A model generated the notes under the pieces. The model was not told the DNA's origin, did no database searches, and saw only the letters and a program-made list of their open reading frames with translations. A program made the position numbers and the translations under genes. From the NCBI RefSeq assembly GCF_009834025.1, contig NZ_CP047156.1, positions 1,426,001 through 1,490,000 on the forward strand: a DNA stretch of 64,000 nucleotides, read 5' to 3'. This DNA comes from Epidermidibacterium keratini (lineage in GTDB: Bacteria; Actinomycetota; Actinomycetes; Mycobacteriales; Antricoccaceae). This document shows, in pieces, positions 607 to 16,457 of the stretch. Positions within the stretch are counted from its first letter, which is position 1. Every line of letters starts with the position of its first letter.

Positions 607-1569
607 ATGGCCATCTCGGTGCAGTCCTGCCCGCACCTGTGCGCTCGCCAAGGGGTCGCCCACCGCCACGAGGTGGGGCCGGTCGCGGTCGCGATGCGCA
701 TGCTGGCCGTGCTTCGGGTCGTCATCGCCGGCCTCATTGGTACGGCGTGGCGGCGCCAGGTCGACCGGTTCACCGGCACGAGCATGGCCCGTCGCTACGT
801 GCCCAAGGTCTATCGGCGCGTCATCGCGGCGAGCGGGATCACCGTCGAGGTCACCGGGCTGCGCGAGACGTTTGCCAACCCCGGCGAGCCGGTGCTGGTT
901 GTCGGCAACCACGTGTCCTGGCTTGATGTGATGGGCTTGGCATGCGTGCAGCCGGTGCGGATGGTCTCCAAGCGCGAGATCGGCGAGTGGCCGGTGATCG
1001 GGACGGTCGCCACGGCTGCCGGCACGATCTTCATCGACCGCTTCGCCCCGCGCCGTGTCGCCGCAACCCACCGCGAGGTCGCCAGCGCGCTACGCGCGGG
1101 CGAGGTCATCGCCACGTTTCCCGAGGCAACGACGACCTGCGGTCGCGGCATCGGACGGATGTATCCGGCGATGTTCCAGGCCGCGATCGACGCCGGCGTA
1201 CCTGTCCAGCCGGTGGCATTGACGTTTGTCGACAGCCACGGATGCATCACCACCGCTGGTGCGTATGTCGGGGAGCAGCCGCTGATGGACTCGATCCGCT
1301 CCATCCTCGGGCAGCGCGACCTGCGGCTGCGTATCGAGGTCCTGCCGCGGATCAGCCCCAAGCACGTGCGCCCGATCGACGATCGCAAGGCGTTGCGCAC
1401 GGCGGCTCACAGCGCGATCTCCGAGGCGCTGGAGCTGGCCGTCGGCGACTACGACGCCCACCTGCGCCCGGCGACCTGCCAGGCGAGGCCGCTGGCGATC
1501 CCGGTCGTCGCCGATCCACTCACAGAGCTCGAGGCCATCGCCGCGAAGGCCCGGCGTACTGCCGCCTAA
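607..1569 (+). CDS. PlsC/OlsA-like 1-acyl-glycerol-phosphate (lyso-lipid) acyltransferase
   Basis: The 320-residue protein has the acyltransferase HX4D box in GNHVSWLDV (near residue 100) and the second block as FPEATTTCG, an FPE-T variant of the usual FPEGT. A hydrophobic stretch near residues 33-48 (LAVLRVVIAGLIG) probably anchors it to the inner face of the membrane. It begins one base after the stop of the OlsB-like gene. The expected reaction is transfer of an acyl chain from acyl-ACP or acyl-CoA to the free hydroxyl of a lyso-lipid. It is either a phosphatidic acid enzyme or, given its neighbour, the second step of an ornithine-lipid-like pathway; sequence alone does not separate these. 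Confidence 0.85.
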   Translation: MAISVQSCPHLCARQGVAHRHEVGPVAVAMRMLAVLRVVIAGLIGTAWRRQVDRFTGTSMARRYVPKVYRRVIAASGITVEVTGLRETFANPGEPVLVVGNHVSWLDVMGLACVQPVRMVSKREIGEWPVIGTVATAAGTIFIDRFAPRRVAATHREVASALRAGEVIATFPEATTTCGRGIGRMYPAMFQAAIDAGVPVQPVALTFVDSHGCITTAGAYVGEQPLMDSIRSILGQRDLRLRIEVLPRISPKHVRPIDDRKALRTAAHSAISEALELAVGDYDAHLRPATCQARPLAIPVVADPLTELEAIAAKARRTAA

Positions 1570-1604
1570 CGGGCACGCTGCCACGGTTCGGAGTACTCGG
1601 TGCC

Positions 1605-1620
1605 TATGCTGGAAGACGTG
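1605..1620 (+). promoter_or_regulatory. -10 box TATGCT of a leaderless HAD gene
   Basis: TATGCT at 1605-1610 is followed by exactly 7 nt and then GTG at 1618. This TANNNT-N7-start layout recurs in the window and implies that the transcript begins at or next to the start codon. No Shine-Dalgarno sequence is present. Confidence 0.55.
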
Positions 1621-2439
1621 CCCGTCCCCGTCCGGCAAGCTGCGTTCTTCGATCTCGACAAGACGATCATCGCCAAGTCGAGCGCGCTCGCATTCGGTCG
1701 GCAGTTCTTCGCCGAGGGGCTCATCAACCGCCGCGCCGTGCTGAAGGCGACCTACGCGCAGCTGGTCTATATGAGTCCGGGCGCCGACGACGAGCAGATC
1801 ACCAAGATCCGCAACCACATCACCGAGATGTCGGCCGGCTGGAACGTCGAGCAGGTGCGCTCGATCGTCGCCGAGACACTGCACGACGTGGTCGACCCGC
1901 TGGTGTACGACGAGGCGACCGAGCTCATTGCGCTGCATCAGGAAGCCGGCCGCGACGTCGTGATCGTCTCGACCAGCGGCGCGGAGATGGTCGCGCCGAT
2001 CGGTGGGATGCTCGGGGTCGATCACGTCATCGCCACGACCATGCGCGTCGAAGACGGCACGTTCACCGGCGAGGTCGACTTCTACGCCTACGGCCCGGCC
2101 AAGGCCGAAGCGATGCGCGAGCTCGCCGAGCGCCGCGGCTACGACCTCAGCAAGTGCTACGCATACTCCGACTCCGCCTCGGACATCCCGATGCTGGAGG
2201 CGGTCGGGCACCCGACGGCGGTCAATCCCGACAAGACGCTGCGGGCGCTGGCGATCGAGCGCGAGTGGCCGATTCTGACCTTTACCAAGGGCGTCTCGCT
2301 TCGCGAGCGTTTCGACCAGTTCAGCGCACGCTCGGGCTCGGTCGTCGCTGGCACGGCGGGTACGGCGGCTGCCGCGGCCGGGATCGCGTGGCTCGCGGCG
2401 CGGCGCCGGCGCCGCGCCGCCGAAAGCTCAAAGCAATGA
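1618..2439 (+). CDS. HAD-IB (SerB-like) phosphatase with hydrophobic C-terminal segment
   Basis: FFDLDKTII near the N terminus is the catalytic DxDx(T/S) motif of HAD phosphatases. SDSASDIPML around residue 185 is the motif IV acidic loop, and VSTSGAEM supplies the motif II serine/threonine. The subfamily is IB, like phosphoserine phosphatase and glycerol-phosphate phosphatases. After about residue 240 there is an Ala/Gly-rich hydrophobic stretch and a terminal Arg-rich tail (AARRRRRAAESS), suggesting a membrane-associated C terminus. I chose GTG 1618, not the in-frame GTG at 1600, because a TATGCT box sits 7 nt upstream; 273 residues result. Its stop overlaps the next ATG (ATGA). It follows two lipid acyltransferases, so a lipid-phosphate substrate is possible but unproven. 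Confidence 0.85.
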   Translation: MPVPVRQAAFFDLDKTIIAKSSALAFGRQFFAEGLINRRAVLKATYAQLVYMSPGADDEQITKIRNHITEMSAGWNVEQVRSIVAETLHDVVDPLVYDEATELIALHQEAGRDVVIVSTSGAEMVAPIGGMLGVDHVIATTMRVEDGTFTGEVDFYAYGPAKAEAMRELAERRGYDLSKCYAYSDSASDIPMLEAVGHPTAVNPDKTLRALAIEREWPILTFTKGVSLRERFDQFSARSGSVVAGTAGTAAAAAGIAWLAARRRRRAAESSKQ

Positions 2440-2723
2440 GCGGCTGGTACTGCCTCGGCGCGTGGCTGTTGGTCGTCGCCGTCGCGGTCGCGGCGCACCT
2501 GTTCGGCAAGCTCGCCAGCGCAGCACCGACAGATCCCGACAGCGAGGCGAGCGTACGGCGCGCCCGGCTCGGCGTCGCGATCTCGATCACCGGACCCCTG
2601 ATAGCGCTAGTGATTGGCTCGGGCGCTGGCCTCGTCACCGGCGCCTGGCCGATGGCCGGACTGGTGACTTTCGTAGGGATCGTTCTCGTAGCCGCCATCG
2701 GTTACACCCTCGCCCCTCGCTGA
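2436..2723 (+). CDS. Small integral membrane protein, unknown function
   Basis: This 95-residue protein starts with ATG 2436 overlapping the HAD gene stop (ATGA), so it is translationally coupled to it. Three hydrophobic segments are visible: residues about 5-22 (WLLVVAVAVAAHLFG), 46-65 (ISITGPLIALVIGSGAGLV) and 72-92. A charged loop rich in Asp/Glu/Arg separates the first two. I recognise no family. It could be a membrane partner of the HAD phosphatase. It ends 20 bp before a long palindrome. Confidence 0.7.
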   Translation: MSGWYCLGAWLLVVAVAVAAHLFGKLASAAPTDPDSEASVRRARLGVAISITGPLIALVIGSGAGLVTGAWPMAGLVTFVGIVLVAAIGYTLAPR

Positions 2724-2812: not shown

Positions 2813-4039
2813 CTACGGAGTGAAGCCGGCGAGGGGGCTCTCGGCGCAGGCGGTCACCGGCGGCGCACTCGACGCGCCGACCACCGAACCATCCGAAGCC
2901 CGGCGCCCGATCGTCACCGGCACCGGAGCCCGCGTCCCCGGCCGCCGACCCGCGCGACGTTTCTTGGAGTGATCGACGCTTGGCTTGGGCAGTACGCCGG
3001 ACCGCCCGGCCAGCAGGTCTTCGCCGTACCCCTGCACGCACTCGGGGTCCGGGCCGTCCAGCGGCAGGCCGGTGAAGAACTTCGCCGCCATGCAGCCGCC
3101 GCGGCACGAGTCGTAGAACTGGCACGAGGCGCACGCCCCGCCGGTCTGCGGCTCACGCAGCTCGGCAAACAGCTCGGACTCACGCCACACGCCTTGAAAG
3201 CCCCCGGGCGAGCGGACGTTGCCGGCGAGGAACTCCTCGTGGATCGCAAACGGGCAGGCGTAGACATCGCCGACCGGGTCGATGAGGCAGACGACGCGAC
3301 CGGCGCCGCACAGGTTGAGCCCGGGCAGCGACTCGCCGTACGCCGCGAGGTGGAAGAACGAGTCACCGGTCAGCACGTCTTCGCCGTGAGCAAGCAGCCA
3401 CTCGTAGAGCTCACGCTGCTGCTCCGGCAGCGGATGCAGCTCGTCCCAGGTGTCAGCGCCGCGGCCGGACGGGCGCAGCCGGGTGAGCCGCAGCTGCGCG
3501 CCGTACTCGTCGGCGATCGCCTTGAACTCATCGAGCTGGCCGATGTTGTGCCGCGTGCACACCACCGACAACTTGAAGCCGCTGAACCCGGCATCGCGCA
3601 GGTTGCCCATGGCACGCAGCGCGGTCTCGTAGGAGCCGGGCCCGCGCACGTGGTCGTTGACGTCGGCGGTCGCGCCGTCGAGCGAGATCTGCACGTCAAC
3701 GTAGTCGCTGGCGGCGAGCTTGCGCGCGATCTCCGGGGTGAGGCGTACGCCGTTCGTGGAGAACTTCACCCCCACCTGGTGGTCGGTCGCGTAGTCGACG
3801 AGCTCCCAGAAGTCGGGGCGGATCGTCGGCTCGCCGCCGCCGATGTTGACGTAGAAGACCTGCATGCGCTGCAGCTCGTCGATGATCGCCTTCGCCTCAT
3901 CGGTGCTCAGCTCGTTGGGGTCACGTCGCCCCGAGCTCGACAGGCAGTGCACGCACGCGAGATTGCAGGCATAGGTCAGTTCCCACGTCAGACAGATCGG
4001 CGCGTCGAGGCCGAGCTCAAAGTGCTCCACGAGCTTCAT
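2813..4039 (-). CDS. mftC: Mycofactocin radical SAM maturase MftC
   Basis: The 408-residue protein carries the radical SAM cluster motif CNLACVHC (CxxxCxxC, about residues 26-33) and the GGGEPTIRPDF SAM-binding loop. A C-terminal SPASM region is rich in cysteines (CGAGRVVCLI, YACPF, CASCQFYDSCRGGC, PECVQG) and binds auxiliary Fe-S clusters. MftC decarboxylates the C-terminal Tyr of MftA and then makes a Val-Tyr crosslink. The start ATG at 4039 overlaps the mftB stop. The C terminus runs about 60 residues past the conserved region as a basic, Pro/Ala-rich tail, longer than I expect for the family; it may be unstructured. No mftD or mftF follows: a convergent unrelated gene ends here. Confidence 0.97.
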   Translation of the reverse strand: MKLVEHFELGLDAPICLTWELTYACNLACVHCLSSSGRRDPNELSTDEAKAIIDELQRMQVFYVNIGGGEPTIRPDFWELVDYATDHQVGVKFSTNGVRLTPEIARKLAASDYVDVQISLDGATADVNDHVRGPGSYETALRAMGNLRDAGFSGFKLSVVCTRHNIGQLDEFKAIADEYGAQLRLTRLRPSGRGADTWDELHPLPEQQRELYEWLLAHGEDVLTGDSFFHLAAYGESLPGLNLCGAGRVVCLIDPVGDVYACPFAIHEEFLAGNVRSPGGFQGVWRESELFAELREPQTGGACASCQFYDSCRGGCMAAKFFTGLPLDGPDPECVQGYGEDLLAGRSGVLPKPSVDHSKKRRAGRRPGTRAPVPVTIGRRASDGSVVGASSAPPVTACAESPLAGFTP

Positions 4040-4317
4040 GCGGACTCCTCCAGGGATGTGCGGGGTACGACGATGTCGCTCGCGACGAGCGACTCAAGAG
4101 CGCGGGTGAACCGCGCACGGTCGTCTGCCCCAATGTCGGTCGCGGCCATCGCCGCGTCGACGCTGTCGTGCTCGGGAAGGGCGCGCACCAACTCAAGAAG
4201 CCGCCGGTCCTTTAAGAACGACAGCTTGCGGTTGCCAAAGTGGTAGAGCAGCGCGCCGAATGGCTCGGGGCGCACCGACACCGCCTCGTGTAGCGCCCAG
4301 GGGCGTGTGGTGTCCAT
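4036..4317 (-). CDS. mftB: Mycofactocin peptide chaperone MftB (RiPP recognition element)
   Basis: This 93-residue protein starts with ATG 4317; the segment ALHEAVSVRPEPFGALLYHF matches the PqqD-like MftB fold that binds the leader of MftA and presents it to MftC. FGNRKLSFLKDRRLLELVRAL is the following conserved helix region. It lies 11 bp after the mftA stop and overlaps mftC by 4 bp (ATGA), the usual mftABC order. Length is normal for MftB. Confidence 0.95.
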   Translation of the reverse strand: MDTTRPWALHEAVSVRPEPFGALLYHFGNRKLSFLKDRRLLELVRALPEHDSVDAAMAATDIGADDRARFTRALESLVASDIVVPRTSLEESA

Positions 4318-4328
4318 GCAGGAGCGGC

Positions 4329-4463
4329 CTAGTAGACGCCGCACATCCCGTCGATCGAGACCTCTTCGACGAGCTCGTCGTCGGCGACCAGCTCGGCCTG
4401 CGGCGTGGTCTCGTCGCTCTCGGTCTGCTCGGCCTCGATGCGCTCCATCGTCTGCTCGCTCAT
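4329..4463 (-). CDS. mftA: Mycofactocin precursor peptide MftA
   Basis: The 44-residue peptide has an acidic leader (MSEQTMERIEAEQTESDE...) and ends in the invariant core IDGMCGVY; the final Val-Tyr pair is the part modified by MftC and later excised and oxidised to the redox cofactor mycofactocin. I start it at ATG 4463 because GGAGG lies 8 nt upstream; an in-frame extension further upstream (MVWVITAAQC...) has no such site and does not resemble the family. It is first in the mftABC operon and divergent from mftR. Confidence 0.97.
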   Translation of the reverse strand: MSEQTMERIEAEQTESDETTPQAELVADDELVEEVSIDGMCGVY

Positions 4464-4561
4464 GTCGATCCTCCATCGCGTCGGTCGGTGGGCAGTCCCC
4501 GGGCATTGCGCCGCGGTTATGACCCAGACCATACTGACACTCGATGCCGAAAGGAAGAGCT
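4464..4561. promoter_or_regulatory. Divergent mftA/mftR promoter region
   Basis: The 98-bp gap between mftA and mftR must hold both promoters. Features visible are the mftA ribosome site (GGAGG, reverse strand), a ribosome site AGGAAG before mftR and a weak dyad TATG-N8-CATA at 4518-4533, next to CATACT, a possible -10 for mftR. The dyad is a candidate MftR operator only; arms are short. Confidence 0.4.
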
Positions 4562-5170
4562 ATGGCCAGATCGGCTCCCGACATCGCACCACCCAGACCC
4601 GGGCGGCGCCCCTCGACCAGCCTGGAGGAGATCGAGCGCGCCGGGTTGGCGCTGTTTGCTGACCGCGGCTTCGACGCCGTCTCGGTCGACGACATCGCGG
4701 CCGAGGTCGGCATCGGGCGCCGCACCTTCTTTCGCTACTACCCCTCCAAGAACGACCTCGTGTGGGGCAGATTCGACGAGCTGATCGACGAATGGGAAGC
4801 GTGGATGCGCGCCCACACCGCCGAAATGCCTTTGCTGCAAGCGATCCGCGCCGCCGTACTGCACTTCAACGACTTCCCCGAAGACGACGACACGCACAGA
4901 TTGCGCATGTCGCTGATCCTGCAGAACCCAGCACTGCAGGCCCATGCCACCCTGCGCTACCAGCGTTGGCGTGATGCGATCGCGCGCTACTCAGCTCGCC
5001 GGCTCGGCGTCGACAATGAGGCGTTCACCCCACGGGTTATTGGGCACATCGCCCTCGGCGCGGCACTCGCGTCATACGAGCAGTGGCTGCTGACGCCGGA
5101 CGCCGACCTGCGCGGCCTGCTCGATGACGCGCTCACCGTGCTCGCCGAGACGGTCCGCCTCCCCGGCTAG
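4562..5170 (+). CDS. mftR: Mycofactocin TetR-family regulator MftR
   Basis: This 202-residue TetR-family protein has its HTH at about residues 20-65, with the recognition part VGIGRRTFFRYYPSKNDLVWG, typical of MftR (the RRTFFRYYPSK wording is close to that of known MftR proteins). The ligand domain contains DDDTHRLRMSLILQNPALQAHATLRYQRW. MftR represses mft genes and responds to long-chain acyl-CoAs in mycobacteria. I chose ATG 4562, preceded by AAAGGAAGAGCT, over ATG 4544, which lacks a ribosome site. It is divergent from mftABC. Confidence 0.93.
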   Translation: MARSAPDIAPPRPGRRPSTSLEEIERAGLALFADRGFDAVSVDDIAAEVGIGRRTFFRYYPSKNDLVWGRFDELIDEWEAWMRAHTAEMPLLQAIRAAVLHFNDFPEDDDTHRLRMSLILQNPALQAHATLRYQRWRDAIARYSARRLGVDNEAFTPRVIGHIALGAALASYEQWLLTPDADLRGLLDDALTVLAETVRLPG

Positions 5171-5216: not shown

Positions 5217-6233
5217 CTACGCAGACGTCGCGGGCAGGATCCGCCGCAGGATGTCGGCCATGCTGACCACCCCGACACGCTGATCGGCATCAAAGACGAC
5301 TGCCAGCTGCTCACCGTGCTGGCGCATGTCGGCGAACGCCTCGTGCACCAGTGCTTCGACCTCGACCGGGTACGCCGGCCGGGACAGCTCGGCGACCGGC
5401 CGATCTGCCGGCTCGAGCAGCGTGTCGCGGACGTGGACGATGCGCGACTTCCCCGAGCCTGGTTCGGGCTCGACGACGACCCGCATATGCCCTGAGCGAT
5501 GCGATGCCGCCTGCACATCGGCCACCGTGGCGTGAGCGGGCACGGCCGTCACCGACCGGTCGCGGTCGATGAGCTCGCCGATCTTCAGCGTCTCCAGCTC
5601 GATCGCGCCGGCGAGCGGAGTCTGGTACGCGACGTCGAGGGCACCCACGTTGGCCGAGTGCTCGACGAGGTGGCGCAACGTCGCCGGATCGCGACCACCC
5701 GTCGCGGCCTTATCGACCGGCTCCACACCGGAGGCCTTGACGAGCCGGTTGGCAATCGAGTTGATCCACCGCAACAGCGGGCGGAACGGCCAGATGAAGG
5801 CTCGCGAGGGGATTCCGAAGACGATCGCGGCACGCTCGGGAAAGGCGATGGCCCACGACTTCGGTGCCATCTCGCCGACAACGAGATGCAAGAACGTCAC
5901 GATCAGCAAGGCGAGCACGAAAGCCGCGACGTCGGCAAGCCAGTCCGGCAGCCCGAGTCCCTGCAGCAGCGGCAACAGCGCTTCGTCCACGGCCGGTTTG
6001 GTGACCGCGCCGAGCGCGAAGGTGCAGGCGGTGATGCCGAGCTGAGCCCCGGCCAGCATGATCGTGAGCTCGTTGATGCCACGCAGCGCCGCGCGCGCAG
6101 AGCGGCTCGTCGCGGCCGCCTCTTCGAGGCGATTGCGGCGGGCACCGAGCAACGCAAACTCGATGATCACAAAGAACGCGCTTAACGCGATGAGCGCCGC
6201 GGTGGCCGCGAAGACGAACCATGGGTTACTCAT
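5217..6233 (-). CDS. CNNM-domain membrane protein with CBS domain (HlyC/CorC family), short form
   Basis: The 338-residue protein begins with three to four transmembrane helices of the CNNM (DUF21) type: hydrophobic N terminus, then AGAQLGITACTFALGAV and the conserved VGEMAPKSWAIAFPERA segment. A CBS-like region follows (residues about 205-335). It lacks the C-terminal CorC_HlyC domain found in its upstream neighbour, which it overlaps by 8 bp. Paired long and short CNNM genes are common in actinobacteria and probably form a heteromeric Mg2+/divalent cation transporter or export regulator; the ion is not shown by the sequence. Confidence 0.88.
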   Translation of the reverse strand: MSNPWFVFAATAALIALSAFFVIIEFALLGARRNRLEEAAATSRSARAALRGINELTIMLAGAQLGITACTFALGAVTKPAVDEALLPLLQGLGLPDWLADVAAFVLALLIVTFLHLVVGEMAPKSWAIAFPERAAIVFGIPSRAFIWPFRPLLRWINSIANRLVKASGVEPVDKAATGGRDPATLRHLVEHSANVGALDVAYQTPLAGAIELETLKIGELIDRDRSVTAVPAHATVADVQAASHRSGHMRVVVEPEPGSGKSRIVHVRDTLLEPADRPVAELSRPAYPVEVEALVHEAFADMRQHGEQLAVVFDADQRVGVVSMADILRRILPATSA

Positions 6234-7605
6234 CGTCGGCCTCCTTTGACTGCGGGCTAGTGGATTCTTCGATCAGCGTGATCCGCACTGACTCGGGCAC
6301 GTGCCGCTCGATCTCAAGGATCTCGACCTCAATCGCGCGCTGCGGTAGCTGGTCTAATGCCAGATCCGCGGGATCGACGGGCAGCTCGATCCGCACGCGT
6401 TCGCCGCGCTCAGGTAGCGCACCGTGCTCGGAGATCACCAGACCGGCGACTGTCTCAAAATCCCCCTCAGGCAAGGGATGTCCGACAGCACGTTCGGCCT
6501 CGTCGACATGCACGTCACCGTCCATCAGCCACGTGCGCGCATCCTCGGCGACGACGATCTCGTCTGCGTCGGAGTCGTGCTCGTCGCTGATCTCGCCGAC
6601 GATCTCCTCGGCGAGGTCCTCAGTGGTGAGTACGCCGCTGAAGCCGCCGTACTCATCGATCACACACGCCAGCTGGTTGCCCGAGCCGACGAGCGCCGAG
6701 AGCGCGTCCGGCAGCGTCATCGACGTGGGGATGACCAGCGGGGCACGCATGACGGAAGTGACACGATCGCCCTCGTCGATGTCCTTGCCGAGCAGGTCGG
6801 CGAGCTGTACGACGCCCACGACCTCCCCGGCCTCGTCGATCACCGGGTAGCGGCTGTGGCCACGAGCCATGAGCTCGCGCACCGCGGCAACGCTCATGTC
6901 CGGACGCACGGCGTCGACTCGCGAGCGCGGGATCATCGCGTGCTCGACGTCTTCACCCGGGAAGTCCAGGATGCGGTCGAGCATGACCGACAGGTCCGCA
7001 GGCAGGTCGCCACTGCGGCGCGAGTCGGCGACGATGTGCTCCAGGTCCTCTGCGGTCGCGCTGCCGTCGATGTCGTGGACGGGTTCGATCTTCAGCAGCC
7101 GCAGCAGCCCGTTGGCAGCCTTGTCGAAGACCGCGATGAGCCAGCCAAACACCGAGAGGTAGATCGTGGTCGACCGGGCGAGGCGCCGCGCCATCGGCTC
7201 GGGAGCAGCGATCGCCAGGTTCTTCGGATAGAGCTCGCCGAAGATCATCTGGACGACGGTGGAGACCGCGAGCGCCAGCACAGTGCCAACGGTCACGCTG
7301 ACCGCCACCGGGACGCCGACTCCACCGAGCAGGGTGCCGAGAGCCTCGCCGACGAGCGGCTCGGCGACGAACCCGACGAGCAGGCCGGTGACGGTGATGC
7401 CGAGCTGGGCGCCGGACAGCATGAACGACGTACGCCGTGTCACGCTCAGCGCCCGAGCCGCGGTGCGGTCGCCGGCGTCGGCCTGCGCGCCCAGACGTGA
7501 ACGGTCCACCGACATATAGGCAAACTCTTGGGCGACGAAGTAGCCGTTTGCGGCAATGATGACCAGGATCGTCGCGATTCCCAGTAACAGCTGCAGGACT
7601 GCCAC
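6226..7605 (-). CDS. CNNM/CBS/CorC_HlyC membrane protein (hemolysin-type), long form
   Basis: The 459-residue protein has N-terminal CNNM helices (AANGYFVAQEFAYMSVDRSR, SGAQLGITVTGLLVGFVAEP, FGELYPKNLAIAAPEP). Two CBS motifs follow at about residues 215-340, including MIPRSRVDAV, HSRYPVIDEAGEVVGVV and VIDEYGGFSGVLT. A C-terminal CorC_HlyC domain (about 370-450) contains EGDFETVAGLVI. It is the first gene of a two-gene operon with the short CNNM protein. Family members act in Mg2+/Co2+ efflux or homeostasis at the cytoplasmic membrane. Confidence 0.9.
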   Translation of the reverse strand: MAVLQLLLGIATILVIIAANGYFVAQEFAYMSVDRSRLGAQADAGDRTAARALSVTRRTSFMLSGAQLGITVTGLLVGFVAEPLVGEALGTLLGGVGVPVAVSVTVGTVLALAVSTVVQMIFGELYPKNLAIAAPEPMARRLARSTTIYLSVFGWLIAVFDKAANGLLRLLKIEPVHDIDGSATAEDLEHIVADSRRSGDLPADLSVMLDRILDFPGEDVEHAMIPRSRVDAVRPDMSVAAVRELMARGHSRYPVIDEAGEVVGVVQLADLLGKDIDEGDRVTSVMRAPLVIPTSMTLPDALSALVGSGNQLACVIDEYGGFSGVLTTEDLAEEIVGEISDEHDSDADEIVVAEDARTWLMDGDVHVDEAERAVGHPLPEGDFETVAGLVISEHGALPERGERVRIELPVDPADLALDQLPQRAIEVEILEIERHVPESVRITLIEESTSPQSKEADDE

Positions 7606-7876
7606 TAGCGCTCCCCGACCGAGATCGGGCTAGCGGCCAGTACGGCGTTCAGCGGGGTGAGAGACGAGTTCGGACTGTGAGGCGGGTCGTCGGGCGACCC
7701 GGTTTCATCGCAGTGAGACACACAGCCCCAACGTCGCTGACCGCGAAAGAGTTTCACCGGCGTGAAATTTGGTTACATCGCCAGCAGCGAAAGAAACCAC
7801 TGGTCACCGCCGCTCTGCTACGGTCTGCAGTGGCGCAGTTCACACACCATGTTCCCCTGCATGGATGTGAGGCCTG
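7606..7876. other. 271-bp divergent intergenic region with TTTCAC/GTGAAA dyad
   Basis: The gap separates the leftward CNNM operon from the rightward DUF485/symporter operon. A perfect dyad TTTCAC-CGGC-GTGAAA lies at 7752-7767, about 110 bp before the DUF485 start, and could be an operator. I see no gene or RNA in the rest. Confidence 0.45.
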
Positions 7877-8287
7877 ATGAGCACCGAACCTCTGTCGTCG
7901 CACGCCGCATACGAGCAACTGCACGAAACAGATGAGTTCCGAACCCTCAAGCATCGATATCGCAGCTTCGCGATCCCCTGGACGATCGCGTTTCTGGCGT
8001 GGTACCTGCTCTATGTCATCCTGAGCAACTGGGCGCCCGGATTCATGAGCACCAAGCTGTTCGGCAACATCAACGTCGCCCTTGTCTTCGGGCTGCTGCA
8101 GTTTGTCTCGACGTTCCTCATCGCCTGGCTCTACTCCCGGCACGCCGCCAAGGCGCTCGATCCCATCGCCGAGGATCTCGAGGGCCGCTACGTCGCCATG
8201 GTCGGCGCGGACGGAGCGCCACGCCGCCCGGGCGATCACACGCCGCCGGATGAGATTCCCTCCAGCGCTGAAGGCGGTCTGCGATGA
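7877..8287 (+). CDS. DUF485 (YjcH-like) membrane protein
   Basis: This 136-residue protein has two transmembrane helices (about residues 36-52 and 70-92) and the DUF485 pattern EFRTLKHRYRSFAIPWTI. The family is nearly always encoded directly upstream of an ActP-type cation/acetate symporter, as here. The stop TGA overlaps the symporter ATG at 8284 (ATGA). It probably assists or regulates the transporter. After the second helix there is a soluble tail of about 45 residues. Confidence 0.9.
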   Translation: MSTEPLSSHAAYEQLHETDEFRTLKHRYRSFAIPWTIAFLAWYLLYVILSNWAPGFMSTKLFGNINVALVFGLLQFVSTFLIAWLYSRHAAKALDPIAEDLEGRYVAMVGADGAPRRPGDHTPPDEIPSSAEGGLR

Positions 8288-9932
8288 CCACGATCCTGGC
8301 TGCCGAGAGCGGCGGGCACGAGACCCTGACCGCCGTACTCTTCATCTCCGTGTCATCTTGACCGTCGGCATCACGTTTTGGGCAAGCCGGCAAAACCGCA
8401 GCGCGGCCGACTACTACGCCGGCGGGCGGCAGTTCACCGGCACCCAAAACGGTCTCGCGGTCGCCGGCGACTACATGTCCGCTGCGTCGTTCCTGGGAAT
8501 CTCGGGCTTGATCGCCCTGAACGGGTACGACGGCTTCCTGTATTCGATCGGCTTCCTCGTGGCGTGGCTTGTCGCGTTGCTGCTCGTCGCAGAGCTGCTG
8601 CGCAACTCCGGACGCTTCACGATGGCCGACCAGCTGGCCTACCGGATGAACCAGCGCAAGGTCCGCGTCGCGGCAGCATCCTCGACCGTCGTCGTGTCGA
8701 TCTTCTACCTGCTCGCGCAGATGGTCGGTGCGGGTGCGCTCGTCACGCTGCTGCTTGGAGTCACCAGCGAGGCGGCGCAAGCCTGGGTCATCGTCGGCGT
8801 CGGCCTGCTGATGATCTTCTACGTCGTGGTCGGCGGCATGAAGGGCACCACGTGGGTGCAGATCGTGAAGGCCGTGCTGCTGATGGTCGGCACTGTGCTC
8901 ATTACGGTGCTGGTGCTCGCGAAGTTCAACTTCAACATCTCCGCGATGCTCGGGCAGGCGGTCGAGACGACCGGCAAGCCCAACTTCCTCGACCCAGGGC
9001 TCAAGTACGGCGTCTCGACAACATCGAAGATCGACTTTGTATCGCTGGGAATCGCGCTAGTGCTGGGGACCGCCGGGCTGCCGCACATCCTCATCCGCTT
9101 CTACACCGTCCCGACCGCCAAGACCGCGCGCAAGTCGGTGCTGTGGGCGATCGGGCTCATCGGCGCGTTTTATCTCATGACGCTTGTTCTGGGCTTCGGC
9201 GCCGCCGCGCTGCTGAACACCGGCCCGGACTCGGCCGTCGCGCTCAGTAGCGGCAACCTCGCCTCGCCACTGCTCGCACAGGAGGTCGGCGGTGGCGCCG
9301 GGACAATCGGCGGATCGATCCTGCTCGCGTTGATCTCGGCCGTCGCCTTCGCCACAATTCTCGCGGTCGTCGCAGGCCTGACTCTGACGTCGGCATCCTC
9401 GGTGGCGCACGACATCTACGCCAACGTGATTAAGCGCGGCAAGGCGACGGAGCGAGACGAGATCCGGGTGGCCCGGATCGCGGCGTTCGTCATCGGCGGC
9501 GTCGCGATCTTGCTCGCGATCCCCGCGCAGAAGCTCAACATCGCCTTCCTCGTAGCGCTCGCGTTCGCGGTCGCGGCCTCTGCCAACCTTCCATCGCTGA
9601 TCTACAACCTGTTCTGGAAGCGGTTCAACACCCGCGGCGCGCTGTGGAGCATCTATGGCGGCCTCATCTCGGCCGTGGTGTTGGTGTTCTTCTCCCCCGT
9701 CGTCTCCGGCAAGGTCACTCCCGACGGCAAGAGCGCCTCGCTTTTCCCGTTGGGCGTGGACTTCTCGTGGTTCCCGCTGGAGAACCCCGGCATCGTGTCG
9801 ATCCCGATCGGCTTCTTGATGGGCTATCTCGGCTCGATCAGCAAGCGCGACGCCGAGGCCGAGGCCAAGTACGCCGAGCTGGAGACCCGCGCGCTCACTG
9901 GTGCCGGGGCGGAGAAGGCGGTGTCGCACTAA
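8284..9932 (+). CDS. actP: ActP-like cation/acetate symporter, apparent -1 frameshift near codon 23
   Basis: Sodium:solute symporter family with about 12-13 transmembrane segments. The family signature region ITFWASRQNRSAADYYAGGR and AVAGDYMSAASFLGI is clear. Translation from ATG 8284, coupled by ATGA to DUF485, gives MTTILAAESGGHETLTAVLF and then hits TGA at about 8359. The symporter frame resumes directly after CTCCGTG at 8347-8352; one extra G there would join FISV to VILTVGITFW in frame. So either one base is deleted in this strain, inactivating the normal start, or the sequence has an error. A downstream TTG at 8358 or an internal start could still yield a protein lacking the first segment. 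An acs gene elsewhere in the window fits an acetate uptake role. Confidence 0.85.
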
Positions 9933-10001
9933 GCCGGTGCAGCCTGCCACCGCCACGGCCCTCACCACCGGGTTTGCGCACTCTCAGTTAGTCTCGACGG
10001 C

Positions 10002-10031
10002 GTGTATCCGCCGAGGCTTGGGCCGACATGA
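10002..10031 (+). other. Possible 9-codon leaderless leader ORF overlapping the next start
   Basis: TAGTCT at 9989-9994 is followed by 7 nt and GTG at 10002. The resulting nine-codon frame (VYPPRLGPT) ends in TGA at 10029-10031, overlapping the ATG of the next gene as ATGA. This layout would feed ribosomes into the downstream operon by coupling. It may be chance. Confidence 0.3.
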
Positions 10032-10339
10032 GTGCGTGGATCGTCTGGACCGTGGCGATTGCGATGTTGGTGCTTGCCGGGTTCATCGCCGCCACCCGCT
10101 CACGCGCTGCGGCACGCACCCGCGAACTCGCTTCGGAGATGGCTCGTGCCCGACGCGCCATCGCGCTCGCCGAGGCATCACGCGATACCTATCCCGGCCA
10201 GCTCGCCAAGGCCGACGTACTCCTCGACCAGGCGACCGGCCTGCTGTCAGGCAACGATGACCCGGCGACGGCCATTCGAGCTCGAGAGCTTGCCGAACAG
10301 GCGGACGAGCTCTGGCGGGTCACCGGGAGCGACACGTGA
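10028..10339 (+). CDS. Small bitopic membrane protein with helical cytoplasmic tail, unknown
   Basis: The 103-residue protein has one N-terminal transmembrane helix (residues about 4-22, IVWTVAIAMLVLAGFIAA). A highly charged helical region follows, RARRAIALAEASRDTYPGQL, with Ala-rich heptads that could pair with the tails of the next two proteins. No family is recognised. It is the first of three unknown membrane genes joined stop-to-start (GTGA at 10336) that end in mftE. No usual ribosome site precedes it. Confidence 0.7.
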   Translation: MSAWIVWTVAIAMLVLAGFIAATRSRAAARTRELASEMARARRAIALAEASRDTYPGQLAKADVLLDQATGLLSGNDDPATAIRARELAEQADELWRVTGSDT

Positions 10340-11682
10340 GCACCACGCCCCGGCCACGATCCTCGGTGACCCGCAGCGTCCTGCAGTGGAGCGCCGTCGT
10401 ACTGCTCGTCATCACATCGCTGATATTCCTGGCAAACCAGGCACAAAGGCCAGACGTGACCTACGGCGCCGGCCCCGAGGCCCCGGCCCTGGAGGCCTCC
10501 GCACAGCAGCCACTACCGACCTACGCCGAGATTGAGCAGCAGTACGGCGACCAACAGATCGTCCGGTTGCCGGGGGCGGTCGCGACCGTCGACGAGCAGC
10601 TCGTTACTCAGTGGCTCGAGACGGCCGGGGCCAGCCGGGTGCTCCTGCTTCCGCCGCTGTCGCCGGACGCTCCCCGGGGAGAAACCTACGACGCCCCGCG
10701 CGATGTCGTCGTGGTGACCGGCACGATGGCAACCTTCCAGTCGCTGGGCACATCGTCGAGCACCACGGCGGAGTTCCAGCGCAAGTTTGCATTGGGCGAT
10801 GTCACCGCTGACGTGGTCGCGTTGCTTGCAAATGCCGTCGACGAGCAAGCGCCCGAGACCGAGCCGGCTCCAACTCGTGAGCCCACCGCGGAGGAGCTCA
10901 GCGCGGTGGTTGCCGATCTCAGCGACGACGGTATGGCGTTCGTCGGCGGCGCCGAACCGTTTGAGCGGCCTGAGGCCGAGCCGTTCGAGTCCGAGCCGCT
11001 GATCGTCGTCGCGCCGTACCCCGCACCCGGAGAGCCCATCGTCGACTACGCCGCTGCCGTCGGTGAGGCGTTCCCCGATCGCGTCGTGGTGACCATGACC
11101 GGTCTGTGGGTCGACTATGCCGGCGAGGAGATCGACGACGCCGCACCCGCGATCGCCGCGAGCTTCTACGGACGGACCGAAGAACGACTCAGCAGCTATG
11201 GTTACCCCCAGCAGAACGTGCTCGCGGCAAACCTCGCCACGGCCGAGCAGTTCCGAGCCGGTGGCATGTTTGATCGCGAGATTCCATATGTACCAGCCGA
11301 TCCGCTGTATCTGACACTTCCGGTCCTGCCCTGGCTGTGTGCCGGGTTGGCCGTCGTGGCCCTTGGCGCGACCTTGATTCCGGGGCGGCGACCGGACGGA
11401 GTCGAACTGACACTGTCGCCCGAAGCGGCCGCCCGCTTTGCCGTCTTGAGTGATCTGGCTGTCGAGGTCAGCCCGCACGTCACCGACGAGGCGCGACCGC
11501 CCTATGTCCGCGGCTCGAGAGCGCTCGTTGAGGCCCGCGACGCGTTGGCCGACCCCACCACGACCGCCGAGGACGTCGACGTGCTCCTTGACCGAGTCGA
11601 TGAGGAGCTGACCTCGGTGGCTGACGCGATCGACGATCCCGCGTGGTCACCAGCCGAGTTCGGCAAGGATAGGGAACTCTGA
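10336..11682 (+). CDS. Two-TM membrane protein with large extracytoplasmic domain, unknown
   Basis: The 448-residue protein starts with GTG overlapping the previous stop. Helix 1 is at about residues 18-37 (LQWSAVVLLVITSLIFLA). Then comes an outside domain of about 290 residues, rich in Glu/Pro, with alternating beta/alpha-like stretches (ASRVLLLPPLS, RDVVVVTGTMA, EPLIVVAPYP, PDRVVVTMTGLWVDY). Helix 2 is at about 333-352, and the cytoplasmic tail of about 100 residues is helical (ALADPTTTAEDVDVLLDRVD). The domain resembles the general TPM/ectodomain style but I cannot assign it. Same architecture as the next gene, so the two may form a complex. Confidence 0.7.
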   Translation: MSTTPRPRSSVTRSVLQWSAVVLLVITSLIFLANQAQRPDVTYGAGPEAPALEASAQQPLPTYAEIEQQYGDQQIVRLPGAVATVDEQLVTQWLETAGASRVLLLPPLSPDAPRGETYDAPRDVVVVTGTMATFQSLGTSSSTTAEFQRKFALGDVTADVVALLANAVDEQAPETEPAPTREPTAEELSAVVADLSDDGMAFVGGAEPFERPEAEPFESEPLIVVAPYPAPGEPIVDYAAAVGEAFPDRVVVTMTGLWVDYAGEEIDDAAPAIAASFYGRTEERLSSYGYPQQNVLAANLATAEQFRAGGMFDREIPYVPADPLYLTLPVLPWLCAGLAVVALGATLIPGRRPDGVELTLSPEAAARFAVLSDLAVEVSPHVTDEARPPYVRGSRALVEARDALADPTTTAEDVDVLLDRVDEELTSVADAIDDPAWSPAEFGKDREL

Positions 11683-12611
11683 TGGCGGCACAGCGGGGCG
11701 GACGCCGCGGACTCAGCGAGATCGCCTTGTTGGTCGTCTGCCTGGTCCTCGGCGGAGTGGCGTTGTGGGGCGCCGGCGTACTCGACAGCGCCATCGCGCG
11801 CGAAGTCCGCGTCAGCAATGCGTACGTCGAAGACGGCGTCGAGATCGACGAAGCCGAGGCAGAGCAGATCATCGGCAACCGCAACCTCGTGGTGATCTAT
11901 CTCGACGGTGAGCTCGGTTCACGCGGCAGCGATGTCTGCGACGCGGTCAGCAGTGCGGCCGCCGGGTCGTTCGTGGCGATCGTCGACGAACAGATGCGGA
12001 TGTATGGCTGCTCGTTGATGCCCGGCGAGGATGAGAGCGACGAGTTCGGCAAGGGCTACGTCGCCGAGACGACGATGAGAACGGGGATCCGTTCGGTCGC
12101 TGATGATCCGATCCAGGCGACGCGCGTGTTGGCGAGCAACTTTGACGGGCTCGTGCGCGCCGGCATCGCACCAGAAAGTGCCCGCGAGATCACCGTGCCC
12201 TACTCGCGCTATCTGATCGCCGGAATCGCTCTCGGCACCGTCGTTATCGGCGCCCTGCTGGTCTACCTCCGCGGGCGGGTGCTGGGCCACCGCCGCGCCG
12301 ACCAGGTGGAGGGCGACATCGCAGACCGTGGACTCATCGCGCAGCGCGACGCGGCTCTCGCCGCGACCGGCGTACGCCTATTGGAGCTGGACGCCACGCT
12401 GCAAGACGCCTTCGCCACGCCGGAGGAAGACCGCTTGATCAGCGAACGCCTGCACATCGGCTCCTACGAGCGCATGACGAAGGAGTACGTCGAGCTCAAC
12501 GCGGAGGCGGCCGGCGACGAACCTTCCGGCGGCATCGACGACCAGCTTGATCGGATCGAGGCCATCAACGAGGAAGCGACGCGAGTGCTCACGCAACGGA
12601 AGTACTCGTGA
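11682..12611 (+). CDS. Two-TM membrane protein with extracytoplasmic domain, unknown
   Basis: The 309-residue protein starts at ATG 11682, sharing a base with the previous stop (TGATG). Helix 1 is at residues about 12-33 (EIALLVVCLVLGGVALWGAGVL). The outside domain (34-178) holds NRNLVVIYLDGELGSRGSDVC and two cysteines near MYGCSLMPGED, possibly disulfide linked. Helix 2 spans about 181-201, followed by a helical cytoplasmic tail. No family recognised. Its stop overlaps the GTG of mftE (GTGA), so the creatininase-like enzyme and this membrane module are translated together. Confidence 0.7.
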   Translation: MAAQRGGRRGLSEIALLVVCLVLGGVALWGAGVLDSAIAREVRVSNAYVEDGVEIDEAEAEQIIGNRNLVVIYLDGELGSRGSDVCDAVSSAAAGSFVAIVDEQMRMYGCSLMPGEDESDEFGKGYVAETTMRTGIRSVADDPIQATRVLASNFDGLVRAGIAPESAREITVPYSRYLIAGIALGTVVIGALLVYLRGRVLGHRRADQVEGDIADRGLIAQRDAALAATGVRLLELDATLQDAFATPEEDRLISERLHIGSYERMTKEYVELNAEAAGDEPSGGIDDQLDRIEAINEEATRVLTQRKYS

Positions 12612-13279
12612 CCGGTGATCGTCCGCCCCTGCACGAGGCGGTCTGGCCGGAGGTCAGCGCTGGCGGGACGCTCGTCGTACCTCTAGGTGCGACCGAGCAG
12701 CATGGACCACACCTGCCGCTCGGCACCGACACGATCATCGCCGAGTCGGTAGCGGGCGAGCTGGTGCGGCGGGTGGCGGATGCCCATCTGGCCCCGTCGA
12801 TTGCGATCGGTGCGAGCGGTGAGCATGCGGGATTCGCTGGCACGCTGTCGATCGGCACCGACGCCGTGTACGCCGTACTGCTTGAGTTAGTGCGCCACAG
12901 TGTGCCGCCGTGGGACCGCGTGATGGTCGTCAACGGGCATGGCGGCAACGCGACTGCCCTTGCCCGGCTGGCCGACACGTGTGCGTATGAGAAACGGCCG
13001 GTTGTCGTGCGGCACTGTCATGTCCCCGGCGGTGATGCGCACGCCGGTCGCACGGAGACATCGCTGCTGCTGCATCTTCGTCCAGAGCTGGTGAGGTTGG
13101 ACCGCGCGGAGCCAGGAAACCCTGCCCCCGTTGAGAAGTTGCTGGGTCAGCTGCGCGAAGGTGGAGTGCGGTCGGTGTCGCCGAACGGCGTACTCGGCGA
13201 CCCCACCGGCGCCTCCGCTGCCGAAGGCGCCGAGCTCTTCAAAGCGCTCGTCGCCGACGCGCTCGCCACCTACGGCTGA
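12608..13279 (+). CDS. mftE: Creatininase-family peptidase MftE
   Basis: The 223-residue protein belongs to the creatininase family. The metal-binding motifs are visible: PLGATEQHGPHLPLGTDT (Glu, His and Asp ligands near residues 30-45), SGEHAGFAGTLSIGTD, VVNGHGGNA and the C-terminal acidic HAGRTETS. MftE cleaves the C-terminal two residues off modified MftA in mycofactocin biosynthesis. The wording is closer to MftE than to creatininase proper. It lies 8 kb from mftABC, in an operon with three unknown membrane proteins; the start is GTG overlapping the previous stop. Confidence 0.88.
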   Translation: MTGDRPPLHEAVWPEVSAGGTLVVPLGATEQHGPHLPLGTDTIIAESVAGELVRRVADAHLAPSIAIGASGEHAGFAGTLSIGTDAVYAVLLELVRHSVPPWDRVMVVNGHGGNATALARLADTCAYEKRPVVVRHCHVPGGDAHAGRTETSLLLHLRPELVRLDRAEPGNPAPVEKLLGQLREGGVRSVSPNGVLGDPTGASAAEGAELFKALVADALATYG

Positions 13280-13399: not shown

Positions 13400-14245
13400 C
13401 TAGGCGAGGAGCTCCATGAGGAGGGCGGGGGCCGCGCTGGGGCCGCTCAGAGCAGCCCACTTGCCGCCGGCGACCTGAGCCAGCTTCTCCGCGGCACTCA
13501 CGTCGTCATCGGGGGTGAGGATCACCAGCTCATCGACCGTCGAAGCCGCGGGCACCGGATCGACGTCGTCGGTCTCGCGGCAGTCCGACAGCAACACCAC
13601 CACACGCCGTTGAGCGCGCGCGCCGGCGAGCTGGTCGACCGCGGCCTTCAGGCCACCGGCCAGCCCCGTGACGCCGTGTCCACGCAGAGCGAGTACGTCG
13701 TTGATCACCTCGCCAGCAGTACGCCGACCGTCGATCGGGCGAATAATCTCAGCCTCACGGGCAAACTTGACGATTGCGTACTCCCCCGGCGCGCGCCACG
13801 CGCACGCAGCGGCGGTGATCGCCGACGACGTCAACCGGTCGCCGCTCATCGACCCGGACGTGTCCAGCAGCAGACAGATCGCGAGCTCGGACTTCGCCCA
13901 GTCCCGCGCCCAGATCTCCTCCAGCGATGGTTCGCGGCCGGCCGCGTGCGCCTCGGTGATCGCCTCGAACGACGAGTCGATATCGATGTCGCCGCCGCGG
14001 TCGGCCGGAATCCGCCGCATCCGCGCGGATCCTCGTGAGCCGGGCTGACCGACCCGCGCTCGGTCGAGCACGATCCGGGCAGCGAGCTCCTTCGCGCGCG
14101 CCCGCAGCTTCTCATCGGTCGCGCGCACCATGTCGCCGAGCAACGCCATCATCTCGTCGGGCGAGACCTTCATCGCCTCGTCCATCGCCGCTTCGTCGAT
14201 CTCACCGACCTCAGGCGAGATCTGCGCAAACAGCGGGTTGTTCAT
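13400..14245 (-). CDS. VWA (von Willebrand factor A) domain protein paired with MoxR ATPase
   Basis: The 281-residue protein has the MIDAS motif LLDTSGSMSG (about residue 132), followed by the downstream metal-ligand region RGHGVTGLAGGLKAA and VVVLLSDCRETDDV. The N-terminal half begins NNPLFAQISPEVGEIDE, typical of actinobacterial VWA proteins co-occurring with MoxR. ATG 14245 is the only standard start; an open Pro/Gly-rich extension upstream has no ATG/GTG/TTG, though CTG 14248 cannot be excluded. It is downstream of moxR in the same direction, and the pair probably acts as a metal-insertion or folding chaperone for an unidentified target. Confidence 0.88.
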   Translation of the reverse strand: MNNPLFAQISPEVGEIDEAAMDEAMKVSPDEMMALLGDMVRATDEKLRARAKELAARIVLDRARVGQPGSRGSARMRRIPADRGGDIDIDSSFEAITEAHAAGREPSLEEIWARDWAKSELAICLLLDTSGSMSGDRLTSSAITAAACAWRAPGEYAIVKFAREAEIIRPIDGRRTAGEVINDVLALRGHGVTGLAGGLKAAVDQLAGARAQRRVVVLLSDCRETDDVDPVPAASTVDELVILTPDDDVSAAEKLAQVAGGKWAALSGPSAAPALLMELLA

Positions 14246-14337
14246 CAGCTCGTTGCGGCTCTTAGTGCGGTTCTTCGGACCCGACTGGCCTCCCCCGGGC
14301 GGCGGTGGCGCCGCGTCCTGGGGCTGGTCAGCCGGGT

Positions 14338-15231
14338 CTACGCTTCCCCCGAGTCATCGTCGTCCTTCGGCGGCTGGCCGAACACGCCGATGTAGAGCTC
14401 GCGCACGATCTCCTCCGGCGTACGCGTCGACGACTCGTGCAGCCGCACCCGGCCTGACAGCGCCACGGTCGCCGCGTCCAAGCCCAGATGCCAGTCGTCA
14501 ACAGGGACGCCGCGACCGTCGGCGAGCGTTCCGGCGAGTTTGATCATGTCGATGACGCCGCGCACCGACGATCCGACGCGTACGTCGGGGTGGTTGCGAC
14601 TCGAGCGGATCAGCTCGACGACCTTGGCGCGCCACTGCTCGGGCACCTGCGGTGCGCGCAGCTGGGCGATGGCATCCTCGGCGTCCGGGCTCTGGTAGCC
14701 CATCGCGATCCGGCACGTGCGGTCGTAGATCGCACCGGAGATCCGCGCCGTACCCACCGAGTCGTAGGGGTTCATCGCCGCGACGAACTTGAAGCCGGGT
14801 GCCGCCCGCACCGATCCCAGTCGCGGCACATGCACCTCGCCCTCGGACATCGAGGTGAGCAGCACGTTGAGCGTCTCCTCCGGCACGCGGTTGAGCTCCT
14901 CGATGTAGAGCAGCCCGCCGGTGCGCATCGCCTCGATCAGCGGACCGTCGACGTACACCTCCGGGACGTAGCCGCGCGAGAGCACCTGCGCCGGGTCGAA
15001 ATGCCCGACGAGGCGGCTCGGGGTGAGCTCTGCGTTGCCCTCGACGAAGATGAACGGCACGTGCTCGCGGGCCGCGACGGCCCGCAGCAGGGTGCTCTTG
15101 CCGGTGCCCGGCGGTCCTTCGAGCACGATGTGTGCGCCTGCGTGCAGCGCAGCGAGCAGGAGCTCAACCTCCCGCTCGCGGCCAACAACCTCCCCCTCGA
15201 GATCGGTGGCCTGGACAGCTGCCTGCGCCAT
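14338..15231 (-). CDS. MoxR-family AAA+ ATPase
   Basis: The 297-residue protein has Walker A GPPGTGKSTL (about residues 40-49), Walker B LLYIEELNRVP (about 107-117) and sensor 1 FVAAMNPYDS. It is a short MoxR-type ATPase. The start ATG 15231 has GAGGAGGAACG directly upstream. The VWA gene begins about 90 bp beyond its stop, so they form an operon. MoxR/VWA pairs assemble or activate metalloenzymes; nearest candidates here are the mycofactocin dehydrogenase and the membrane module across the convergent gap, but this is inference. Confidence 0.9.
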   Translation of the reverse strand: MAQAAVQATDLEGEVVGREREVELLLAALHAGAHIVLEGPPGTGKSTLLRAVAAREHVPFIFVEGNAELTPSRLVGHFDPAQVLSRGYVPEVYVDGPLIEAMRTGGLLYIEELNRVPEETLNVLLTSMSEGEVHVPRLGSVRAAPGFKFVAAMNPYDSVGTARISGAIYDRTCRIAMGYQSPDAEDAIAQLRAPQVPEQWRAKVVELIRSSRNHPDVRVGSSVRGVIDMIKLAGTLADGRGVPVDDWHLGLDAATVALSGRVRLHESSTRTPEEIVRELYIGVFGQPPKDDDDSGEA

Positions 15232-15288
15232 CGTTCCTCCTCGCGATTTCTCTCAGCTATATCAGCGATGTTATGTGGTCTGAAAAGC

Positions 15289-15322
15289 GCAGCCACCGCA
15301 CGGCGTACCGCGCGGTGGCTGC
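15289..15322 (-). terminator. Hairpin terminator of the alcohol dehydrogenase gene
   Basis: GCAGCCACCGC (15289-15299) pairs perfectly with GCGGTGGCTGC (15312-15322), with a 12-nt loop, 17 bp past the dehydrogenase stop on the leftward strand. Confidence 0.7.
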
Positions 15323-15338
15323 ACCGGTGGGGTGACGG

Positions 15339-16457
15339 TCAGTGCTCGTGAATCAGCACGCCGCGCACGTTCTTGCCTTCCTCAAGGTCGTCGTAGCCCT
15401 CGTTGACCTCGTCGATCGTGTAGGTCCGGGTGATGAGCTCGTCGAGCTTGATGTCGCCGTTCTGGTAGAGCCCGATGATCTTCGGGATATCGGTGGTCGG
15501 GTTGCAGTCGCCGAAGAGGGACCCCTGAACGGTCTTGCGGAAGAGCGTCAGCAGCGAGGCCGGCAGCTTGACATTGTCGAGGTCGAGCTTGTTCAGGCCG
15601 GTGATGACGACCTTGCTGCCCTTGCCGATCGTGTGGAACGCGGTGGTGATCTGCGGCTCCTCGACCAGGCCGGTGGTGATGATGACCGAGTCGGCCATCT
15701 GCCCACGCGAAACCTCGGTGACGCGCTCCATCGCCTCCTCGGCGGTAGCAAACGCCTCGGTCGCGCCGAGCTCCAGCGCCTTCTCGCGCTTGTTTTCCAG
15801 CGGGTCGACCGCGATCAGGTGCTTGGCCCCGGCGTACCGCGCGCCCTGCACGGCGTTGGCGCCGATGCCGCCCACGCCGTACACCACCACGACGTCGCCG
15901 GGCTTGACGTCAGCGGTGTTGACCGCGGAGCCGAAGCCGGTGGGTACGCCGCAGCCGACCAGGACGGCCTTGTCGAGGGGTACGTCGGGGTCGACCTTGA
16001 CGCACGAGGCCTGGTGGATGACGCCGTACTGGCTGAAGGTGCCGATCATGCACATCGCGCCGACCTTCTCGCCCTTGCTGTTGGAGATCGGCCAGCGGTC
16101 TCCGGGCAGGCCGCCCTCGAGGATGCCCGCGCCCATGTCGCAGATCGACTGCTGGCCGTTGGCGCAGTAGCGACAGACGCCGCAGTTGGGGATAAACGAG
16201 CACACGACCTGATCGCCCGGCGCGACACGGGTGACACCGGGGCCGACCTTCTCCACGACGCCGGCGCCCTCGTGCCCGAGGACCATCGGCAGGCGGGCCT
16301 CCATGTCACCGTTCTTGATGTGCAGGTCGGAGTGGCACAGCCCCGCGTGCGTGTAGCGGATCAGCACCTCGCCGTCCTGCAGGTTGTCGTCGAGCTCGAG
16401 CTCTTCGATGACGATCGGCTGGCCGGTTTCGTAGACGACTGCTGCCTTGGTCTTCAT
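15339..16457 (-). CDS. NDMA-dependent (mycofactocin-associated) zinc alcohol dehydrogenase
   Basis: The 372-residue medium-chain dehydrogenase has catalytic zinc ligands in AGLCHSDLH and GHEGAGVV. The structural zinc lobe is CGVCRYCANGQQSIC, and the nucleotide loop is GVGGIGANAVQG. The long insert ILEGGLPGDRWPISNSKG is characteristic of the NDMA-dependent alcohol dehydrogenases whose tightly bound NAD(H) is recycled through mycofactocin instead of by exchange. The mftABC/R and mftE genes within 12 kb support that reading. It is monocistronic with its own terminator; a perfect palindrome lies at 16523-16541, 66 bp upstream. Confidence 0.9.
   Translation of the reverse strand: MKTKAAVVYETGQPIVIEELELDDNLQDGEVLIRYTHAGLCHSDLHIKNGDMEARLPMVLGHEGAGVVEKVGPGVTRVAPGDQVVCSFIPNCGVCRYCANGQQSICDMGAGILEGGLPGDRWPISNSKGEKVGAMCMIGTFSQYGVIHQASCVKVDPDVPLDKAVLVGCGVPTGFGSAVNTADVKPGDVVVVYGVGGIGANAVQGARYAGAKHLIAVDPLENKREKALELGATEAFATAEEAMERVTEVSRGQMADSVIITTGLVEEPQITTAFHTIGKGSKVVITGLNKLDLDNVKLPASLLTLFRKTVQGSLFGDCNPTTDIPKIIGLYQNGDIKLDELITRTYTIDEVNEGYDDLEEGKNVRGVLIHEH

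Follow-up and report, generated by a model that had tools for sequence, protein, structure and literature searches.

Does a trio of membrane-protein genes that runs directly into mftE, the mycofactocin (MFT) peptidase gene of Epidermidibacterium keratini, belong to the mycofactocin machinery, or is it a module of its own? The genes, here called P1, P2 and P3, lie in a 64,000-nucleotide stretch of contig NZ_CP047156.1 (positions 1,426,001 to 1,490,000; hereafter the window). A sequence-only reading of this stretch had proposed that they form a complex at the membrane, coupled to MftE and tied to mycofactocin biosynthesis or use, for example as the electron acceptor. In window coordinates, the four genes are arranged as follows.

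10028-10339, + strand: P1, 103 amino acids, one transmembrane (TM) segment plus a tail; Pfam DUF6403 (PF19941)
10336-11682, + strand: P2, 448 amino acids, two TM segments and an ectodomain of ~290 amino acids; assigned from its predicted structure
11682-12611, + strand: P3, 309 amino acids, two TM segments, a predicted TPM-fold ectodomain and a helical tail
12608-13279, + strand: mftE, mycofactocin peptidase; equivalog family TIGR03964, 279.7 bits (cut-off, 172)

The open reading frames and their junctions agree with the stop-to-start joining described in the earlier reading: P1 and P2 overlap in GTGA, P2 and P3 share one base in TGATG, and P3 overlaps mftE in GTGA. Hydropathy also agrees with the topology described there, one TM segment plus a tail in P1 and two TM segments around a large ectodomain in P2 and in P3. 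It places the TM segments at residues ~1-25 of P1, ~13-36 and ~324-350 of P2, and ~9-35 and ~176-201 of P3, leaving ectodomains of ~290 residues in P2 and ~140 in P3. Because positive charges flank the TM segments, we infer that the tails of all three proteins are cytoplasmic; that of P1 is taken to be helical.

The trio is a real, conserved three-protein membrane module, occurring in four or more actinobacterial families. We compared 54 named GTDB loci that carry P2, each with up to 10 kb of DNA per side (several contigs end less than 10 kb away on one side). P3 adjoins P2 in 53 of these loci. P1 was found by tblastn in 23 and by profile in all 54, and by our distance rule the profile match lies directly upstream of P2 in 49; in four of the remaining five (L029, L053, L059 and L079) it overlaps the start of P2 beyond the rule, and in L038 it precedes the first of two tandem copies. 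Of the 53 P2-P3 pairs, 37 are joined by a 4-base overlap. Given this constancy of P3, of P1 and of the overlap, the trio is not a chance association. Among frames of at least 100 amino acids in the 54 loci, we found no recurrent gene partner: the trio and its antisense readings dominate, and the only other gene groups spanning at least three lineages occur in 4 and 5 loci. The named loci include Nakamurella, Hoyosella and Lolliginicoccus, and the other genera belong, we presume, to the Pseudonocardiaceae and Micromonosporaceae. P3 is present in 13 of 61 genomes (this genome and 60 relatives), distributed over four families of the order, while a class-wide sample of 296 genomes contained P2 in 4 and DUF6403 in 3 over the cut-off (6 at E <= 0.001). 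The tandem arrangement of L038 (Prauserella cavernicola, 7079-11928) consists of two P2-P3 copies with a P1 match before the first only.

Within the family of E. keratini, the module does stand beside mft genes. MftE was found in all five genomes of this family, and the module is linked to mftF or mftE in four of them. Two (G002 and G003) have the order P1-P2-P3-mftF-mftE, where mftF encodes an MftF-type glycosyltransferase; in G003, MftF scores 253.1, below the cut-off of 280, and the MftE match holds one stop. One contig of G004 begins inside P1, continues with P2 and P3 and ends at mftF, with MftE on another contig, and E. keratini has P1-P2-P3-mftE without mftF between. With mftF intervening in G002 and G003, the direct overlap of P3 with mftE is not the conserved arrangement. 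The fifth genome (G001) contains mftC, mftB, mftE and mftF without a linked module. The mycofactocin pathway of E. keratini appears to be divided between two loci, since mftD is located with an MftF-like gene at ~549 kb (L105 8352-10982), ~0.88 Mb from mftABC and mftE. In a midpoint-rooted P2 tree, given without support values, the four mft-linked P2 proteins group together in a single clade, whose sister group comprises the P2 proteins of the remaining loci, leaving aside L027, which is remote, and the fused copies described below.

Beyond this family, the linkage was not found. No MftB, MftC or MftE (E <= 1e-3) and no MftD or MftF (E <= 1e-10) lies beside the module in any of the 54 named loci, in a flank test that covered mftB to mftF. 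For the whole-genome search, 50 of the 54 carrier genomes were submitted and 49 were searched. MftC was counted over its family cut-off, since E <= 0.001 is no guide when all 14 control genomes match at that level; by this count it is present in 21 of the 49 carriers and not in 28. The positive carriers are 10 Prauserella, 6 Amycolatopsis, 2 Actinophytocola, 2 Hoyosella and 1 Dactylosporangium, the last with MftC in two pieces. In the class sample, MftC occurs in 91 of 296 genomes, a somewhat lower share than among the carriers, and the mix of genera may explain the difference; only this genome in the sample has both MftC and P2.

These counts do not support the mycofactocin role put forward by the sequence-only reading, and the trio is not distributed like the mft genes. 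Wide occurrence of the trio without mft genes, the outcome which that reading had named in advance as refuting it, is what these counts display. The part of its proposal that survives is a conserved module, probably one complex, with mft adjacency in one small family. The trio shares with the mycofactocin cluster (mftA to mftG and mftR) its linkage to, or overlap with, mftE or mftF in that family and differs in lying apart from mftB to mftF in all 54 named loci, often in genomes with no MftC over the cut-off; it is probably not mycofactocin machinery, and the link is local. The first description of the cluster, in its available portion, names no such proteins (PMC3023750), and a literature search found nothing joining mycofactocin to the TPM domain and, in broader listings judged by titles and abstract openings, nothing on the module. 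A tempting assignment of the trio to mycofactocin is thereby corrected.

The earlier reading had also recognised no family for any of the three proteins. This no longer holds for P1, which scores 40.8 bits against DUF6403 (cut-off, 26.9), a family without known function that no literature we found names. It does hold for P2 and P3, neither of which reaches any Pfam or NCBIfam model over the cut-off; the P1 family is thus known but uncharacterised, and the P2 and P3 families are unnamed. Among the families listed for the aligned relatives (52 P2 and 51 P3 sequences), there were only scattered weak Pfam matches. A sequence search of the PDB with the P2 and P3 profiles returned mainly coiled coils, helical bundles and single-TM proteins, with a best E value of 0.0092.

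Predicted structures provide a first structural reading of these two unnamed families, tied to DUF6403 as one module. AlphaFold2 models were built from alignments of each window protein with its GTDB relatives (A4, 52 rows, for P2; A5, 51 rows, for P3), leaving out by hand members that looked short, broken or wrongly called (L076, L078 and L079 of the 54 P2 loci; L076, L077 and L079 of the 53 P3 loci). The P3 model has a predicted local distance difference test (pLDDT) score of 88.1 and a helical tail after the second TM segment. Its ectodomain (approximately residues 36-162) aligns with seven TPM proteins at Z scores of 9.1-11.0.

BA41 (5anp): Z 11.0, root-mean-square deviation (RMSD) 2.9, 118 positions aligned
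7tbr: Z 10.7
PG_0361 (2kw7): Z 10.0
TLP18.3 (3ptj): Z 9.8
cg2496 (2kpt): Z 9.6, RMSD 6.4
Psb32 (8c7i): Z 9.5
BA42 (4oa3): Z 9.1

The P3 model also aligns, at Z 7.8-8.5, with a chain of the mycobacterial III2IV2 supercomplex in four entries (6adq_J, 6hwh_O, 8hcr_J and 8ovc_V), presumably Msmeg_4692 or a homologue; matches of its tail to helical bundles reach Z 12.5 and mean little. On this model, a TPM fold in the P3 ectodomain is well supported. The P2 model (pLDDT 86.7) has an ectodomain of two alpha/beta units and, again, a helical tail after the second TM segment, and its top rows overall (Z up to 9.7) are helical matches to that tail. Five of the TPM proteins listed above align with residues 181-312 at Z 6.3-7.9 (the best, at 7.9, over 119 positions with an RMSD of 3.7), which gives moderate support to a predicted TPM fold in the second half of the ectodomain. 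The first unit has a similar order of elements in the model, and we infer that it may share the fold.

Further copies of the module bear on whether its proteins associate. E. keratini carries a second copy at ~3.576 Mb (L082 7861-10544), directly after ffh, in which a P1-like gene that reaches no Pfam cut-off accompanies a fused P2-P3 protein of 788 amino acids, and G001 has a P1-like gene flanked by two fused P2-P3 copies. By eye, the fused copies lack the cysteines of P3, and they are remote paralogues. The joining of P2- and P3-like parts in one protein in these two genomes suggests that P2 and P3 form a physical complex.

The Rv1476 family (PF20381) was considered as a relative of P3 and dropped. 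Weak matches appear in 4 of the 51 P3 members (best E, 0.033), and the match in a fused copy covers 38 model positions in the last quarter of the model only and scores 17.0 bits where the cut-off is 26. The family has no match in this genome and was found in 2 of 6 genomes in a further search. A PDB search with an Rv1476-family protein from one of the genomes (G010) returned no chain at E <= 0.01, which makes it improbable that the supercomplex chain belongs to this family.

In the interpretation that we consider likeliest, though we give it somewhat less than even weight, P1, P2 and P3 would form one membrane complex with a chaperone-like or scaffold role for another membrane complex. P2 and P3 would be hairpins, running from a TM helix through an outer domain and a second TM helix to cytoplasmic helices; the outer face would carry one TPM-fold domain from P3 and probably two from P2, and P1 would add a TM helix and an inner-side tail. 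We propose a non-enzymatic scaffold or assembly helper by analogy with TPM proteins that assist in the assembly, repair or association of photosystem II and of respiratory complexes. In the available texts, they are proposed as chaperone-like partners in membrane-complex assembly (PMC11237479), and the TPM-domain protein Msmeg_4692 appears to mediate contact between the oxidase and QcrB (PMC8267372). The conserved P2-P3 overlap and the lack of any other broadly recurrent gene group in the 54 loci are consistent with such a complex. In the lineage of E. keratini, the operon came to be joined to mftF and mftE, perhaps for shared expression. Compared with TPM-domain proteins such as Psb32, TLP18.3, cg2496, PG_0361 and BA41/BA42, the module shares the predicted fold. 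It differs in being spread over three genes, in carrying its TPM-like domains, probably three in number, between a pair of TM helices, in having no Pfam TPM match among the families listed, and in its conserved DUF6403 partner. It likewise shares the fold with the Msmeg_4692-type factor of the mycobacterial bcc-oxidase supercomplex (PMC8267372, as available), but with no demonstrated sequence similarity, and no respiratory genes were found as its conserved neighbours.

Several results weigh against this interpretation. All TPM rows for P2 fall below Z 8, a level that possibly reflects just a common arrangement of elements, and its first unit (residues 63-167) gave no TPM row in the fold comparison. 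Foldseek alone produced no match at E <= 0.001 for either protein; P3 had the supercomplex chain as its first row (E, 0.039), and P2 had cg2496 (E, 0.063). At E <= 1, Pfam TPM_phosphatase was matched by neither window protein, and the Pfam TPM model is absent from all 21 families listed for A4 and from the first 25 of 44 for A5. Profile comparison related the second unit of P2 to P3 weakly (E, 0.0019; probability, 14%), and the first unit at an E of 0.035 (probability, 1%). Moreover, a shared TPM fold is by itself no proof of function, and the mutual binding of the three proteins and their service to a client complex are our interpretation of the pattern.

Other accounts of the same proteins can be set against a scaffold role. 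The module could be an envelope-stress sensor in which the outer TPM domains sense and the helical tails signal inward, in the manner of the TPM/coiled-coil partners of PspA; the modelled tails after the second TM segment of P2 and P3 fit this idea, as does the company of such proteins with PspA elsewhere (PMC11237479, as available). We regard it as unlikely: window proteins match no signalling family in Pfam or NCBIfam over the cut-off, and no group other than the trio that spans at least three lineages exceeds 5 of the 54 loci, these groups being unannotated and no search for PspA having been made. It is improbable that the TPM domains are enzymes, with the phosphatase or ATPase/ADPase activity claimed for some TPM proteins, given the missing match to the Pfam TPM model among the families listed and the lack of conserved His or Cys in P2, in a comparison of Cys and His positions.

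A module dedicated to mycofactocin, which would serve as a membrane dock for glycosylated MFT or for MFT enzymes, or would pass electrons to the respiratory chain, would account for the linkage in four of five genomes of one family and for its retention at mftE in E. keratini though mftD and the MftF-like gene are far away. We nevertheless give it little credence, as 90 of the 91 MftC-positive genomes of the class sample lack P2, in addition to the unlinked loci and MftC-negative carriers above. Its chemistry is no more favorable. No Cys or His is conserved in P2, and in P3 only C86 and C110 are invariant (51 of 51 aligned members), perhaps as one disulfide; for this reason, the electron acceptor envisaged by the earlier reading is unlikely, and among the conserved Cys and His positions of P2 and P3 no residues suited to binding haem, iron-sulfur clusters or flavin stand out. 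A link between MFT and respiration has, besides, already been reported for MftG (PMC11778925, as available). A more novel possibility, that an undescribed three-protein outer-face TPM scaffold was captured by the mycofactocin operon in one family and there ties mycofactocin-dependent oxidation or cofactor processing to the respiratory membrane complexes, strikes us as a long shot.

The remaining mft genes of the window lie between 5.2 and 2.8 kb, separated from P1 by two CNNM genes and a transporter gene.

8082-9932, + strand: MctC-type monocarboxylate transporter, directly upstream of P1; NF058657, 816.6 bits
4544-5170, + strand: mftR regulator; TIGR03968, 239.5 bits over 224.9
4329-4463, - strand: mftA precursor peptide, 44 amino acids, ending ...IDGMCGVY; six-frame reading with derived coordinates
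4036-4725, - strand: mftB; TIGR03967, 101.3 bits, match at residues 139-221
2813-4039, - strand: mftC radical SAM maturase; TIGR03962, 655.1 bits

The ending of the mftA peptide is one that we take to be typical of MftA. The true start of mftB is probably near 4318, and that of the transporter gene probably later than 8082, because the family match starts only at residue 89. MctC was considered as a conserved neighbour of the module and rejected, with no match in L016-L027 and one in the 54 named loci. The two CNNM/CBS-domain membrane proteins are encoded by adjacent genes (5217-7605, - strand). Beyond mftE (13400-16457, - strand), genes for a VWA/CoxE-like protein, a MoxR-type AAA protein and an NDMA-dependent alcohol dehydrogenase adjoin the mft genes; all three also stand by mft genes in G001 and G002, and the first two in G003. 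The VWA/CoxE-like and AAA proteins may be paired maturation factors of the dehydrogenase. Against MadB, the MoxR-type protein scores 59.7 of 475 bits, far under the cut-off, and a literature search on MadB/MadC found nothing. Finally, a 593-amino-acid open frame without family matches lies at 942-2723 (+ strand), overlapping other frames on what may not be the coding strand; parts of it match the relatives G002 and G003.

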